A DNA stretch of 64,000 bases from Bacteroidales bacterium (GTDB lineage Bacteria > Bacteroidota > Bacteroidia > Bacteroidales > P3). Made by a program: the position numbers and the translations under genes. Location: contig JAIKVZ010000031.1 in the NCBI GenBank assembly GCA_024685285.1, forward strand, positions 123,998-187,997, written 5' to 3'. This document shows positions 1 through 64,000 of the stretch, one piece after another; position 1 is the first letter of the stretch, and each line of letters starts with the position of its first letter. The notes under the pieces were generated by a model that saw nothing but the letters and a program-made list of their open reading frames with translations, searched no databases and was not told the DNA's origin.

Positions 1-414
1 GCCAACGCAATGCTTGAGCGTTTGAGCACGCCCCCCATTCAGCAACGCGTACGCCTCGAGAGCCTGTTGCTGCGTCCCGAGGTGGCTTTGGCCGACCTCG
101 AAACAGTTTCGCCCGAGCTCGCAGACAGTCTTGCAGCCATACCGTCAGAGATAAGAGCTGAGGTTGCCGAAGGTGCCGAAATTGAAATGAAATATAGCCG
201 CTATATTGAGAAAGAGCAAGAGGTGGCCGCCCGTTTGCTCAAGTTCGAGGACATCCTGCTGCCTCCGTCAATCGACTACCACGCTCTGCACGCCTTGAGC
301 TACGAGGCTCGCGAGAAACTTTCGCGTATGAAGCCGCACACTCTTGGGCAAGCCTCGCGCATCAGCGGTGTCTCGCCGGCCGACGTGGCCGTGCTCATGG
401 TAATGCTTAAGTAG
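1..414 (+). CDS. mnmG: tRNA uridine-5-carboxymethylaminomethyl(34) synthesis protein MnmG (GidA), C-terminal part; 5' end outside window
   Basis: Frame is open to base 1; C-terminus (YSRYIEKEQEVAARL...LSYEAREKLSRMKPHTLGQASRISGVSPADVAVLMVML) is typical of the MnmG C-terminal domain. Confidence 0.93.
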   Translation, partial: ANAMLERLSTPPIQQRVRLESLLLRPEVALADLETVSPELADSLAAIPSEIRAEVAEGAEIEMKYSRYIEKEQEVAARLLKFEDILLPPSIDYHALHALSYEAREKLSRMKPHTLGQASRISGVSPADVAVLMVMLK

Positions 415-461
415 GGGTTAAGGTCGGGTTAAGGTCGGGTTGAGGTCGGGTTGAGGTCGGG
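415..461 (+). repeat. Tandem 11-nt G-rich repeat, 4 units plus GGG (GGGTTAAGGTC x2, GGGTTGAGGTC x2)
   Basis: Read directly; begins immediately after the mnmG TAG stop, in a convergent intergenic space. Confidence 0.95.
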
Positions 462-550: not shown

Positions 551-566
551 TGTTCCACGTGGAACA
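551..566. promoter_or_regulatory. Candidate chromosomal parS (ParB-binding) site TGTTCCACGTGGAACA
   Basis: Perfect 16-bp palindrome matching the bacterial parS form TGTTnCACGTGnAACA; intergenic, near mnmG. Confidence 0.8.
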
Positions 567-572
567 GTATGT

Positions 573-1208
573 CTAAGTGTCTTGGACTATGAGTTTTACG
601 CTTTGCAAATAGTCTTTGCTGTCAGGTCCGAGGTTGCACAGCAAATCTATCGCACTCAGGTTGGGTTCGAACCGATGGCGGTCGGCAAAAACCTGTGTGT
701 AGGGCAGGCATTCTATCGCCACTTGAGAGTGCTTTGGGCCAAAGGCTTGCCGCAAGTCTTCAGATTTGCCGCAGGGTGGCTCAAAATCGGTGCTCTGGGC
801 TATTTGACACTCAATTTTGAAGAGCCTCAATAGTAGTTTTGTCAGTGCAGTGTTGAGTTCTATCAGGGTGGGGTAGGGAGTTAGCAGGGTTCGCTCGATG
901 TCGTCGCGGTAGTAGAAATAGTAAGGGCTTGCTGAGTAGGCGGCATCGAGGGTGCGCAGATGGGTGCGTGCCCAGGGGCGACTGTTGTCCACCGTCATGC
1001 GTGATGTAATGGTATGGTTGCCATCGGGGCGCGAAACGGGCACTGTCAAGTCCTGTAAACCGTTGGCTGTCATTATTATAGCACGGTTGCGCAAGGTCTG
1101 CTTCGGGTAGGTTTCGTATACCTCAACGGTGACGTCTGTATTCTGCGCAAGGCAGGCCATATAGGCCACTGGTGGCAGATAGGCCGTGGGCAGCAACGGT
1201 GCGCTCAT
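573..1208 (-). CDS. WbqC-like family protein
   Basis: LLPTAYLPPVAYMACL..., NRAIIMTANGLQDLTVPV, RTLDAAYSASPYYFYYRDDIERTL resemble the WbqC-like family. Confidence 0.8.
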   Translation of the reverse strand: MSAPLLPTAYLPPVAYMACLAQNTDVTVEVYETYPKQTLRNRAIIMTANGLQDLTVPVSRPDGNHTITSRMTVDNSRPWARTHLRTLDAAYSASPYYFYYRDDIERTLLTPYPTLIELNTALTKLLLRLFKIECQIAQSTDFEPPCGKSEDLRQAFGPKHSQVAIECLPYTQVFADRHRFEPNLSAIDLLCNLGPDSKDYLQSVKLIVQDT

Positions 1209-58886: not shown

Positions 58887-60005
58887 TCAGCGCACTGTCA
58901 GCTTTTTGGTGGTGGTGCCGGCGGTGGTGACCAAGCGCACCAAGTAGCTGCCCCGCGGTAGGGCCGTGCAGTCCACCGTGGCGGCGGTGCCCCGTGCCGG
59001 ACGGCTCTGCACCAAACGGCCTGCGGCGTCGTAGAGCTCGACGGCCTGCAGGTGGAACGACGAGAGTACCGTGGCTGTGCCGCCAGCCTCTACCACGCTG
59101 GGTATCAGCTGTGTGTACCTCTCGAGCAGCTGCGGCGAGTAGATGTTGGCGCCCGTGGTGTCAACACCCGTGGTGTCACCTCCTTGCCCCGTGGTGTCTG
59201 CGTTAGGGTCGGGGGTGAGTATCGGAAACATCAGGGTGATGTAGGCCGATATTTGGTGTGGAAGTTCTTGTGGAATTGTTAAATATGTTACAGTATCGTC
59301 CACAATAAGACCTGAGCTTGGGTAGTAGTCCCCCAGACCGGTATCATCGGAATAGTTGGTGTATATATTTCTTGAGTGGTATGACTCTGAGAATCCCGTA
59401 TCAAGGGAAGTATAAAATACTAAGTTGCAACGGCACGAATCCGAAAAAAGGGTGCTTATAAAAATACTGTCTGCTGTGGCAGTATATGGTTGGCTGAAAT
59501 AGGACTCATATATTGGAATGTCTAATGTGGAGACACCGAGCACGTAACTAAAAGGTATTTGCATAAGCATATATGTGGGCTGCAAGGCGTTGAAACTGCT
59601 CTCGGAAACCTTTTTCATGGCAATGTGCGTTATGTGGGCTGGTGAGATGTATGTAGATTTGATGCACATAAGTGTCTTAAAGCTCTCGCAGGAGACTTGG
59701 GACGGAACATAAGACCAGGTGTTTGTATCGTATATAAGTGTTAGTACTGATGTTGCGATACCGTATACATCTACAGGAGGCTCTATGGGTATGGGATGAA
59801 ATAAATTCGGCCAGTCATATATTGGATACTCTAAAACTGTTGCTTTTAAAGAGTCGTGCCCATGCCCGCTCCAAATGGAATGCCACCCCTCTGGCAGCAG
59901 GTAACAGCTGTCGGCATGGTTTAGGAATATCCGGGTGTTAGCGGGCTGTGCCGACAATGCAAATGTTCCGGCAAACAGGATTAATATCAAGACAAAACGT
60001 TTCAT
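58887..60005 (-). CDS. T9SS C-terminal sorting domain protein (B1)
   Basis: Signal peptide MKRFVLILILFAGTFALSA; C-terminal LYDAAGRLVQSRPARGTAATVDCTALPRGSYLVRLVTTAGTTTKKLTVR. Confidence 0.85.
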   Translation of the reverse strand: MKRFVLILILFAGTFALSAQPANTRIFLNHADSCYLLPEGWHSIWSGHGHDSLKATVLEYPIYDWPNLFHPIPIEPPVDVYGIATSVLTLIYDTNTWSYVPSQVSCESFKTLMCIKSTYISPAHITHIAMKKVSESSFNALQPTYMLMQIPFSYVLGVSTLDIPIYESYFSQPYTATADSIFISTLFSDSCRCNLVFYTSLDTGFSESYHSRNIYTNYSDDTGLGDYYPSSGLIVDDTVTYLTIPQELPHQISAYITLMFPILTPDPNADTTGQGGDTTGVDTTGANIYSPQLLERYTQLIPSVVEAGGTATVLSSFHLQAVELYDAAGRLVQSRPARGTAATVDCTALPRGSYLVRLVTTAGTTTKKLTVR

Positions 60006-60022
60006 AGCGGTTGTAGTTGAAT

Positions 60023-61372
60023 TTAACGGCATATTGACAAATATGTTTTAGAAACCACTGGTTTTTGGAATGAGGACACTGTGGGGACAGCCATTACCGT
60101 AGGCATTTGTTCTTCGTAGTTATTGTCGAGGTCCAATGTCGTATTGGTAAATGGCATAAGGTTGTAGCAACTGGATGGGGTTGTATGATATCTACTATAA
60201 AAAAGGGCAAGATTGCCTGAAGTAGAAATTCCCGAAGCAAGTGTCATATTAGGGATAGTAAAATATGAACTGACTGAATTCAGGGAATTGAGATTTGTCC
60301 CAGAGAGATTGTATTTGGTTGTCATAGGAGCAAAAGAAGAAAGATTAACAATCAGTTCCGACCAGTTCGGATTTGACGAAACGGTTAAATCCTGAACTAT
60401 GAACAGTGTGTTTCCCAACATATCAACAGTAATATCTTTCACCGGGCCTGAAAAATTTGCCGAGGAAAGCGTCAGGGCTTTTCTCATTGTATTTGAATAG
60501 GAAGAAGCGTCATATAGCGAGAGAATCAACTCGGAGTTCCCCGAACTTCCAATGAAATGCGTTGCGCAGACGAACTTATCGGCCTCTGTATTCTTTATCA
60601 AAGACGGTGTTGTCGATGCATACGGACTTTCGCAATAATGTATATAGGGGGTAGTGGAGAATATACTGGTAGACCCGTTGGTTGGGCGGTTGAAAAAATA
60701 AACTCTTTGGCGCATATCGTAGTCCCTTCGACGGGAACTAACACCTATGAATCTGGATGATTTATCAACATCATCGAACTGTAAATAGTATTTGTAATAG
60801 TTGGTGGCTGTGAGTTGCCAGTTGTTGCTTGCTATATCTGCTGTGTAACAGTCAATAATGCAATAGTAGGTGGTGGGGTCTCCATAGGCGTTATATTTGC
60901 CTTCACCCACCATAATTACGTGGTATCCTGTGTCCGCTGCGGTATTATAAGCCGTTAGTTTTGTCAGGTTTGTAATATGGAAATCATTTAGAGGGTTCGG
61001 TATGTGGATAATATTGTAAGTGACATTCGAACCCACAAAATCATTTATGTTGAACCATACAAATACAGGAGCCCCCCAATTTTTGCCGCAGAAAAAAGCG
61101 ATTTCACCCTCAACAATCTCTATGTCATTAACAATGCCACACCCCATAGGTACTGAAGCTGAGCGGAAAGTTGACGTACCATAGTCAATGCCAAAATTGC
61201 CAGAACCTGACAGTTCATGATATACCAGGAACCGGTTGGCTGTTATGTTTCTTACCATCGTTTTATCTGTAGGATATGCCGGGACTTCTCTAATTGAGTC
61301 TTGTGCATTTACAGATGCAGTGGTCAGTACGGTTGCAACAAAGGCAAAAACAATATTTATTCCGTACCTCAT
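60023..61372 (-). CDS. Hypothetical secreted protein (A1), paralogous to the degraded gene at 62634-63882
   Basis: Signal peptide MRYGINIVFAFVATVLTTASVNA; no sorting domain at C-terminus. Confidence 0.75.
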   Translation of the reverse strand: MRYGINIVFAFVATVLTTASVNAQDSIREVPAYPTDKTMVRNITANRFLVYHELSGSGNFGIDYGTSTFRSASVPMGCGIVNDIEIVEGEIAFFCGKNWGAPVFVWFNINDFVGSNVTYNIIHIPNPLNDFHITNLTKLTAYNTAADTGYHVIMVGEGKYNAYGDPTTYYCIIDCYTADIASNNWQLTATNYYKYYLQFDDVDKSSRFIGVSSRRRDYDMRQRVYFFNRPTNGSTSIFSTTPYIHYCESPYASTTPSLIKNTEADKFVCATHFIGSSGNSELILSLYDASSYSNTMRKALTLSSANFSGPVKDITVDMLGNTLFIVQDLTVSSNPNWSELIVNLSSFAPMTTKYNLSGTNLNSLNSVSSYFTIPNMTLASGISTSGNLALFYSRYHTTPSSCYNLMPFTNTTLDLDNNYEEQMPTVMAVPTVSSFQKPVVSKTYLSICR

Positions 61373-61388
61373 GTGTATATTTTTTTTG

Positions 61389-61420
61389 CAAATATACAAA
61401 CGTTTTTTCTACTGTGCAAA
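61389..61420 (-). promoter_or_regulatory. Bacteroidota-type promoter for A1-B1 gene pair
   Basis: Minus strand TTTG - 20 nt - TATATTTG. Confidence 0.5.
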
Positions 61421-61457
61421 TATTAATGTTTTTTACATTTTGTGCAGTTTTGCGGTG

Positions 61458-62603
61458 TCAGCGCACTGTCAGCTTTTTGGTGGTGGTGCCGGCGGTGGTG
61501 ACCAAGCGCACCAAGTAGCTGCCCCGCGGCAGGGCTGTGCAGTCCACCGTGGCGGCGGTGCCTCGGGCCGGACGGCTCTGCACCAAACGGCCTGCGGCGT
61601 CGTAGAGCTCGACGGCCTGCAGGTGGAACGACGAGAGCACCGTGGCTGTGCCGCCTACCTCGACCACGCTGGGTATCAGCTGTGTGTACCTCTCGAGCAG
61701 CTGCGGCGAGTAGATGGCGGCGCCCGTGGTGTCAACACCCGTGGTGTCGCCTCCTTGCCCCGTGGTGTCTATTATCGTGGTGTCGATTGCTGTGGTGTCG
61801 AAATAGCTCAGCACCGTGTCCACTGGCGTGGGGGTACTCCTGTTCGGGTCCGGCGTAAGGATGGGGAACGCCAATAATATTCCTGGACGGTATGGGAACC
61901 TGCGCCACCTTACGTAATCTCCTGAATTGTATACTTTTATAGTTGTAGCTATATTTGTGTTCACGGGATATTCTATAGAAAATCCATTCAGGCATAGTCC
62001 TCTGGCGTGAATGCCATCAGCCAATGCTCCATTGTGGTTTGTCGTTCCAAAATAGAATGAGTCGGTAACATAATATGCCGTATCAAAATATGTTTCGAAT
62101 AATGGTGGTGTTATTAGTGTGTTGTCGTTGGGGTCAACGTACATACTATCCATATATGGGGCAATGCGCGAGTGGTGTGGAGGCATAATGTATGTAGGCT
62201 GGTCAAACTGGCTATAGGCAGAACTACCTAATAGCAACATACTGTCTCCGATAGGTTTATATAGGCAAGTGTATTCCCTCCAGTTTGAGCGAGACGTATC
62301 AAGAGAGAAATCGTCCCACCCAGGGAAATTCAGATGAGCAAAACAAGAAGCGACTCCATAAACAGTTAGACCCGCATCCGAACTATCAAGGATTACACAC
62401 ACGTCACTGTTAAAATGGGCTTCTGAATAGGGCCAACCCCAGGTGTATTCTAAAGATGTGTCGGATAGTAATTCATCTATGTTGGGATTGCTTACATAAT
62501 AATTGTCCAACCCTTCAATAGGAACAAGGTCATAGTTTTGAGCAATGGATAAAAGTGCAGTCTGCAAGAGAAAAACAAAAAAGAATAGAGTCTTATTTTT
62601 CAT
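61458..62603 (-). CDS. T9SS C-terminal sorting domain protein (B2), paralog of B1
   Basis: Signal peptide MKNKTLFFFVFLLQTALLSIAQ; C-terminal ~110 aa nearly identical to B1. Confidence 0.85.
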   Translation of the reverse strand: MKNKTLFFFVFLLQTALLSIAQNYDLVPIEGLDNYYVSNPNIDELLSDTSLEYTWGWPYSEAHFNSDVCVILDSSDAGLTVYGVASCFAHLNFPGWDDFSLDTSRSNWREYTCLYKPIGDSMLLLGSSAYSQFDQPTYIMPPHHSRIAPYMDSMYVDPNDNTLITPPLFETYFDTAYYVTDSFYFGTTNHNGALADGIHARGLCLNGFSIEYPVNTNIATTIKVYNSGDYVRWRRFPYRPGILLAFPILTPDPNRSTPTPVDTVLSYFDTTAIDTTIIDTTGQGGDTTGVDTTGAAIYSPQLLERYTQLIPSVVEVGGTATVLSSFHLQAVELYDAAGRLVQSRPARGTAATVDCTALPRGSYLVRLVTTAGTTTKKLTVR

Positions 62604-62633
62604 AATGTGAGTGTATAAAACTGATAATTCTAA

Positions 62634-63882
62634 TCAATAACATATAATTTGTGTCGTATTAGTGGTATTTCTTTCTTTATATGGGATTAGATGTACTGCA
62701 GAAATGAATGGAACCATTCTCGTTTCTTCTATAAAATCCCTCGGAACAGATACTTCAATTATTGGTAGTGTTTTTGAGCACGTTGTGTCACTGAGAGAAA
62801 AGTCGAACCTGTGAAGAGACAGATCCCCATTGTCTAAAACACCTGATGCTATGACTCTACAAGTGTCTCTATAGTCATGATCAAGAGAGGTCAGGTATCT
62901 TTCAACAATATTGTAACGGCATTTTGAACCAATTGATAGACCTATTTGATACACTGCATTTATTTTATTGGCCGAAGAGTCAGTCATGTCTTGAAGAACA
63001 AACAATTTATTTTTGTGCCAAGCAAAATCTTTGATACCATTGATAAAATTGTATCCCTGTATTGTGGGATTTATTACTTTTTGTAATATGGTATTTGGGA
63101 AGCGGTACACAGAAACCATTAAGCCATCAAACGAACCTTGGTCTACTACATGGCATACGGTGGCAAATGTATCCTCATTGCAATGAACTATAGCTACGCT
63201 GTCTAATGCTGTGTAATTGTTGCTTATATACCACACTGTAGGGTCGTTGAGAACATACTTGTAGTACTAACGGTGGTTTATTGAAAAAATATATGCGGTG
63301 TGGTCTGTTGCCTTCCAATGTTTGCCCTGCAACAGCTATATAATTATCTGATACTGCAACGTCGTGGAATTGCCAGTCGGGTTTACCTAAAGTATACATT
63401 TCAATCGCCCATGATGGAGATGTTGGATTTGTGGCGTATGCGTCAACAATACATGAGAATAGTACATTGGGGGTATCCCTGTGGTAACAAGCACCAGTCA
63501 TTATTATATGCACACCACCGTCCGTGGTCTTATAGGCAGTCAATCTGTCCAAGGACGATACTATATATGGAACAAAAGCAGGCAATGCTGTTGACATAGC
63601 AATAGAACTGGGGTAAGATAATGTTTTATAGCCGAAGTATGCATTATATGCCGAGGGTGCTCCACAGAAATATGCCAAGTTAGAAGATGACAATGGTAAT
63701 ATGTCATTAACATATTGAGGACAGGGTAATGAGGACTCCTGGACGAGAGAACCATTTAATAAATGAGAGAATATAAGACTTGCCGCCGCCCCCGTTTCGT
63801 TGTATATTATACAGGAATCACCTGAGATATATCGAACTATTGAATTTTGAGAATTATATCCATTAGTGTTTCCTAAAAAAAA
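62634..63882 (-). pseudogene. Frameshifted and 5'-truncated paralog (A2) of the 60023-61372 gene, or assembly errors
   Basis: Homology to A1 continues across two frames: IYFFNKP / TVSTTSMFSTT / PTVWYISNNYT, with shifts near 63272-63276 and 63241-63243; no signal peptide before the in-frame stop at 63883. Confidence 0.65.
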
Positions 63883-64000
63883 TTAACAAATAGATATGCT
63901 ATCCAAAATTCAAGGACAACTGGTTGAATGGAGCACACTCGCTGATGGGCTGGGGTGCTGTGGACAACAATTCCATCATGTTGTCTTTGACGAGCAACGA

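Follow-up and report, generated by a model that had tools for sequence, protein, structure and literature searches.

In ParABS systems, ParB loads at parS, spreads as a CTP clamp and, together with ParA, segregates the origin region. The closest described representatives, Spo0J-Soj of Bacillus subtilis and ParAB of Caulobacter, use few copies of the same 16-bp consensus as found here (TGTTNCACGTGNAACA), clustered in proximity to the origin. Within the Bacteroidota, clustered parS sites were taken as ori in Bacteroides caecimuris and Muribaculum intestinale, not always together with dnaA (PMC10197239). OriC is commonly located far from dnaA in Bacteroidetes (PMC4755523), and was predicted at mnmG in two flavobacteria, Mariniflexile and Algorimicrobium (PMC11278836, PMC12843772). 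The Noc-binding site (NBS) of Bacillus is likewise a 16-bp palindrome, bound by a relative of ParB.

The palindrome described here lies near the left end of a 64,000-nucleotide stretch of DNA (the window; G000:C29:123998-187997) from a Bacteroidales draft genome (2.0 Mb, 61 contigs, 90.46 % complete, 5.97 % contaminated). It can be regarded, with near certainty, as a parS ("centromere") site to which ParB attaches in order to separate freshly copied chromosomes. It very probably represents one of three parS sites forming a chromosomal centromere-like cluster near an origin at mnmG, not dnaA, and is best read as a chromosomal parS of the ordinary ParABS kind, at an origin unlinked to dnaA. The locus shares with Spo0J-Soj and Caulobacter ParAB the consensus, the low copy number, the origin-proximal clustering and, in congeners, a canonical ParB, but differs in that the sites bracket mnmG instead of residing beside dnaA, and in that congener parAB is found on a contig other than that of parS where both were mapped (e.g., G001 and G015). 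With B. caecimuris and M. intestinale it has in common the affiliation to the Bacteroidota and a parS cluster at an ori that is not necessarily at dnaA; a link to mnmG is not described in the accessible part of that report (PMC10197239), whereas the present analysis adds the gene-level position and its recurrence across the phylum.

Window positions 551-566 form a perfect 16-base palindrome that matches the parS consensus exactly, as the preliminary description had proposed. Its placement of the site in the junction of mnmG and a WbqC-like gene was likewise correct: the two genes are convergent and the site sits between them. The repeat array said to adjoin the site is a short tandem repeat, which gave no sign of a part in parS function. 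The features of this region are:

1..414, plus strand: 3' end of mnmG (gidA); the whole gene spans C29:122516-124411 and starts 1481 bases before the window
415..461, plus strand: tandem repeat of the 11-bp unit GGGTTAAGGTC (4.3 copies), between mnmG and parS
551..566, no strand assigned: predicted parS site 3' of mnmG, TGTTCCACGTGGAACA; exact consensus match, kept at the same place in relatives
573..1208, minus strand: WbqC-like gene (ORF, L010:4570-5205); name from the preliminary description and sequence resemblance

The gene names at the other parS loci also rest on sequence resemblance. Elsewhere in the window, two tandem tRNA-Lys(TTT) genes (1924-1997 and 2024-2097) are apparently the result of a recent duplication that included some upstream bases. 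At positions 60000-64000 the GC content falls to about 42 %, compared to 55-60 % over most of the contig, and the skew at fourfold sites is altered; this segment at the contig end is possibly a mobile element or foreign DNA.

Allowing 0-2 mismatches to the consensus, the site at 551-566 was the only match in the 64-kb window, in agreement with the preliminary description, which had noticed no second copy and had suggested a search of the genome. This search yielded two exact matches in the draft (C29:109327 and C29:124548, the latter being the window site) and one copy with a single mismatch (TGTTCCACGTGGAACG, C29:122469-122484), i.e., 15.2 and 2.1 kb to the left of the window site and outside the window. 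No further copies with 0-1 mismatches and no matches to the reversed pattern were obtained from the draft, and about 0.0075 exact matches would be expected by chance (14 fixed bases, 2.0 Mb / 4^14). All three sites span 15.2 kb of one 188-kb contig (C29). The 16-bp palindrome and the few clustered copies (two exact, one with one mismatch) are characteristic of chromosomal parS. The sites at 122469 and 124548 bracket mnmG, the former between ybeY and mnmG, the latter between mnmG and the WbqC-like gene, while the site at 109327 is flanked by rluD-like and ybaK-like genes.

Based on the origin-proximal clustering of parS, the window had been supposed to be near the replication origin, with GC skew and dnaA named as checks. 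Since gene strand dominates raw GC skew, a gene-strand-corrected skew at fourfold-degenerate sites was used. On C29, the T/A skew switches at 113,059, inside the parS cluster (0/1000 permutations; bootstrap 5-95 % interval 104-139 kb), whereas plain GC skew displays no significant switch. Similarly, the T/A skew of contig C11 of congener G015 switches at 112,143, inside its parS cluster (sites at 107.7-129.3 kb), and on a 1.09-Mb contig from a second Bacteroidales family (G051) it is the GC component that switches, at 417.9 kb, with mnmG and parS at 421-425 kb. Only rough agreement was observed for G009 (T/A switch and nearest parS 35 kb apart) and for the closed chromosome G061 (CP075895.1), where the switch at 209 kb, with a very wide interval, is 55 kb apart from mnmG at 154 kb. 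The supposed proximity to the origin is thus supported computationally by the multiple clustered sites and by the switch within the cluster, with the skew check on C29 borne out for T/A and not for GC. The dnaA gene is located on another contig (C3), which fits the published Bacteroidetes origins; in G061, 590 kb separate dnaA from mnmG. The parS cluster (C29:109-125 kb) would be situated at the replication origin or within some 10-30 kb of it.

A candidate for oriC itself may be the gap between nadA and rpiB, where AT content, taken over 100 bp, reaches its maximum for the entire contig (at 110,911), 1.6 kb from the parS site at 109327. The two features relevant here are:

C29:110836-111193 (L009:10836-11193): nadA-rpiB gap, candidate oriC; AT-richest spot, near the skew switch
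C29:109327-109366 (L001:1501-1540): TTATCAACA word at the rluD parS; congener loci L034-L038, L042-L044, L046, L050, L051, L054, L056, L057 and L063

The E. coli DnaA box (TTATCCACA) forms no cluster near parS. A word one base away from it, TTNTCAACA, clusters in the nadA-rpiB gap of congeners (three copies each in G015 and G016, four in G009, two in G011), also in stretches unseen at the time of motif choice (three in G014, two in G001; shuffle mean <0.1), and occurs once in the gap of the present genome. The same DnaA-box-like word (TTATCAACA type) was found 20-80 bp from the rluD parS at 16 of 18 congener loci (this genome included) and in constant relative orientation; it was detected near none of the three other parS sites within these loci, and a scrambled control gave 0. 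Since the DnaA-box-like motif was chosen through visual inspection of part of these sequences, it remains a lead. In the literature searched, no earlier report of the TTATCAACA word at the rluD parS or of the candidate oriC between nadA and rpiB was found. One may tentatively speculate, though with considerable doubt, that in Bacteroidota parS and mnmG form a unit under selection beyond origin proximity, and that in this genus a module of rluD parS and TTATCAACA word, within about 2 kb of a true oriC located between nadA and rpiB, couples ParB to DnaA.

Exact parS matches are present in 29 of 36 congeners, and the reversed-pattern control returned none across 61 relatives. Where neighbours were readable, the congener sites are mostly at two places, flanking mnmG or between rluD and the ybaK-like gene, with few elsewhere (e.g., G015 at 107703 and G009 at 176705). 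Genomes devoid of an exact match are G005, G012, G013, G022, G029, G032 and G034. Loci fetched from other Bacteroidales families have their sites at mnmG. A scan of 80 mnmG loci from the GTDB genome collection (1.56 Mb; Bacteroidales, Flavobacteriales, Cytophagales, Chitinophagales, Saprospirales and others) revealed 72 perfect and 43 one-mismatch parS sites, compared to 0 and 0 for the reversed control. Of these 115 sites, 84 fall into the 300-bp flanks of mnmG, where an even spread would place about 4. At least one site (≤1 mismatch) occurs within 300 bp of mnmG at 55 of the 80 loci; both flanks were available for 77 loci, with a site on the 5' side in 35, on the 3' side in 31 and on both in 16, the median gaps being 33 bp from the 5' site to the mnmG start and 15 bp from the mnmG end to the 3' site. 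Many Saprospiraceae mnmG loci carry no parS with 0-1 mismatches nearby (L102, L111, L119, L123, L133, L153). Beyond the mnmG loci, at least one exact match was found in 227 of 297 genomes sampled across the phylum, as opposed to 3 for the reversed pattern. A chance origin of the palindrome was rejected on the basis of the match counts in window and genome together with the controls for the 80 loci and the 297 genomes. The mnmG-adjacent sites appear to mark the replication origin in most of the Bacteroidota loci examined.

The tightness of this pairing, within tens of bp on both sides of mnmG and phylum-wide, while the genes past mnmG differ between relatives, would also be compatible with a second job of a true ParB site, namely regulation of mnmG (or ybeY-mnmG) transcription by bound ParB. 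However, an inherited position beside an origin-proximal gene would look no different, the genus has sites at rluD as well, and 25 of the 80 mnmG loci lack a site within 300 bp, rendering such a role rather unlikely.

In case of the cognate proteins, the preliminary description had named absence of ParB from the genome as a finding that would speak against a parS site. Taken literally, this is the situation in the present draft: neither a match to the ParB_N domain nor an orthologous ParA was found. However, ParB is present in 34 of 36 congeners, and an hsp15-like gene, which all 12 congeners tested possess and which in congeners is separated from parB by about 3.4 kb, is absent from this draft as well. 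Since the whole linked block (parA, parB and the hsp15-like gene) is missing from a 90 %-complete assembly while relatives possess it, an assembly gap is the better explanation, and parAB is likely to be present in the organism. A true loss of parAB, leaving the sites as relics or to be bound by another protein, could draw on these missing matches and on congener G033, which also has a parS site without ParB. It is very unlikely, considering the completeness of 90.46 %, the concomitant lack of the hsp15-like gene as with a missing contig, and the state of the sites, two of which are perfect and the third off at one outer base; sites without a reader would be expected to decay fast.

The ParB of congener G015 is canonical, aligning to solved ParB/Spo0J structures with an E value of 5e-50 and containing the GERR motif. 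Aligned to Caulobacter ParB, it keeps R173 and has Y179, N184 and A201. Among parS-specific variants, R173 is invariant, positions 179 and 184 are broadly tolerant, and position 201 is small with a preference for G (PMC7383237). A201 is small too, though A is not among the substitutes named there, G being the commonest. The ParB of this clade, as represented by G015, thus carries specificity residues of the parS type. In contrast to an NBS, the palindrome has parS-type bases, and the congener ParB has R at 173 but lacks K/R at both 179 and 184 as well as R at 201 (PMC7383237); an NBS was rejected on grounds of this sequence and of the lack of the Noc-type residues Q173/K179/K184/R201 in G015 ParB. 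For the ordinary chromosomal parS, a ParB dimer would bind the palindrome as predicted site, load as a CTP-dependent clamp and slide over the neighbouring DNA, and, together with ParA, would carry the origin region polewards after its replication.

An RNA terminator or attenuator hairpin around mnmG that is merely parS-like could account for the closeness of the 3' sites to the mnmG stop (a few bases, median gap 15) and of the 5' sites to the start, and for perfect palindromes able to fold. This reading is hardly credible and fails since RNA covariation is lacking at the free positions, where non-pairing C...A on the mnmG strand (13 on the 5' side, 7 on the 3' side) occurs no less often than wobble-pairing T...G (3 and 6), and since no U run follows the 3' sites (mean T fraction 0.31); moreover, all perfect sites share the central CACGTG, which a hairpin would not need, and the same palindrome is also seen at loci distant from mnmG such as rluD. 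Specifically, an intrinsic terminator was rejected for the lack of covarying stem pairs and of a following U run, and because the terminator scan picked another stem (571-587) at chance level.

For some Bacteroidetes, earlier publications already place parS near ori, and oriC at a large distance from dnaA or next to mnmG. What may be novel is how tightly and how widely parS is tied to mnmG; no report of such a phylum-wide tight pairing was found in the literature searched, with the survey of Livny 2007 lying outside that search. Reliance on dnaA misplaces the origin in Bacteroidota and thereby spoils metagenomic estimates of growth rate and replication, and the mnmG-parS pair provides a simple landmark by which the origin region can be located from sequence on draft contigs. 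Recognisable SMC condensins are also reported to be lacking from the phylum, in the two species examined (PMC10197239), so that exact positions of the centromere sites make chromosome segregation there testable.
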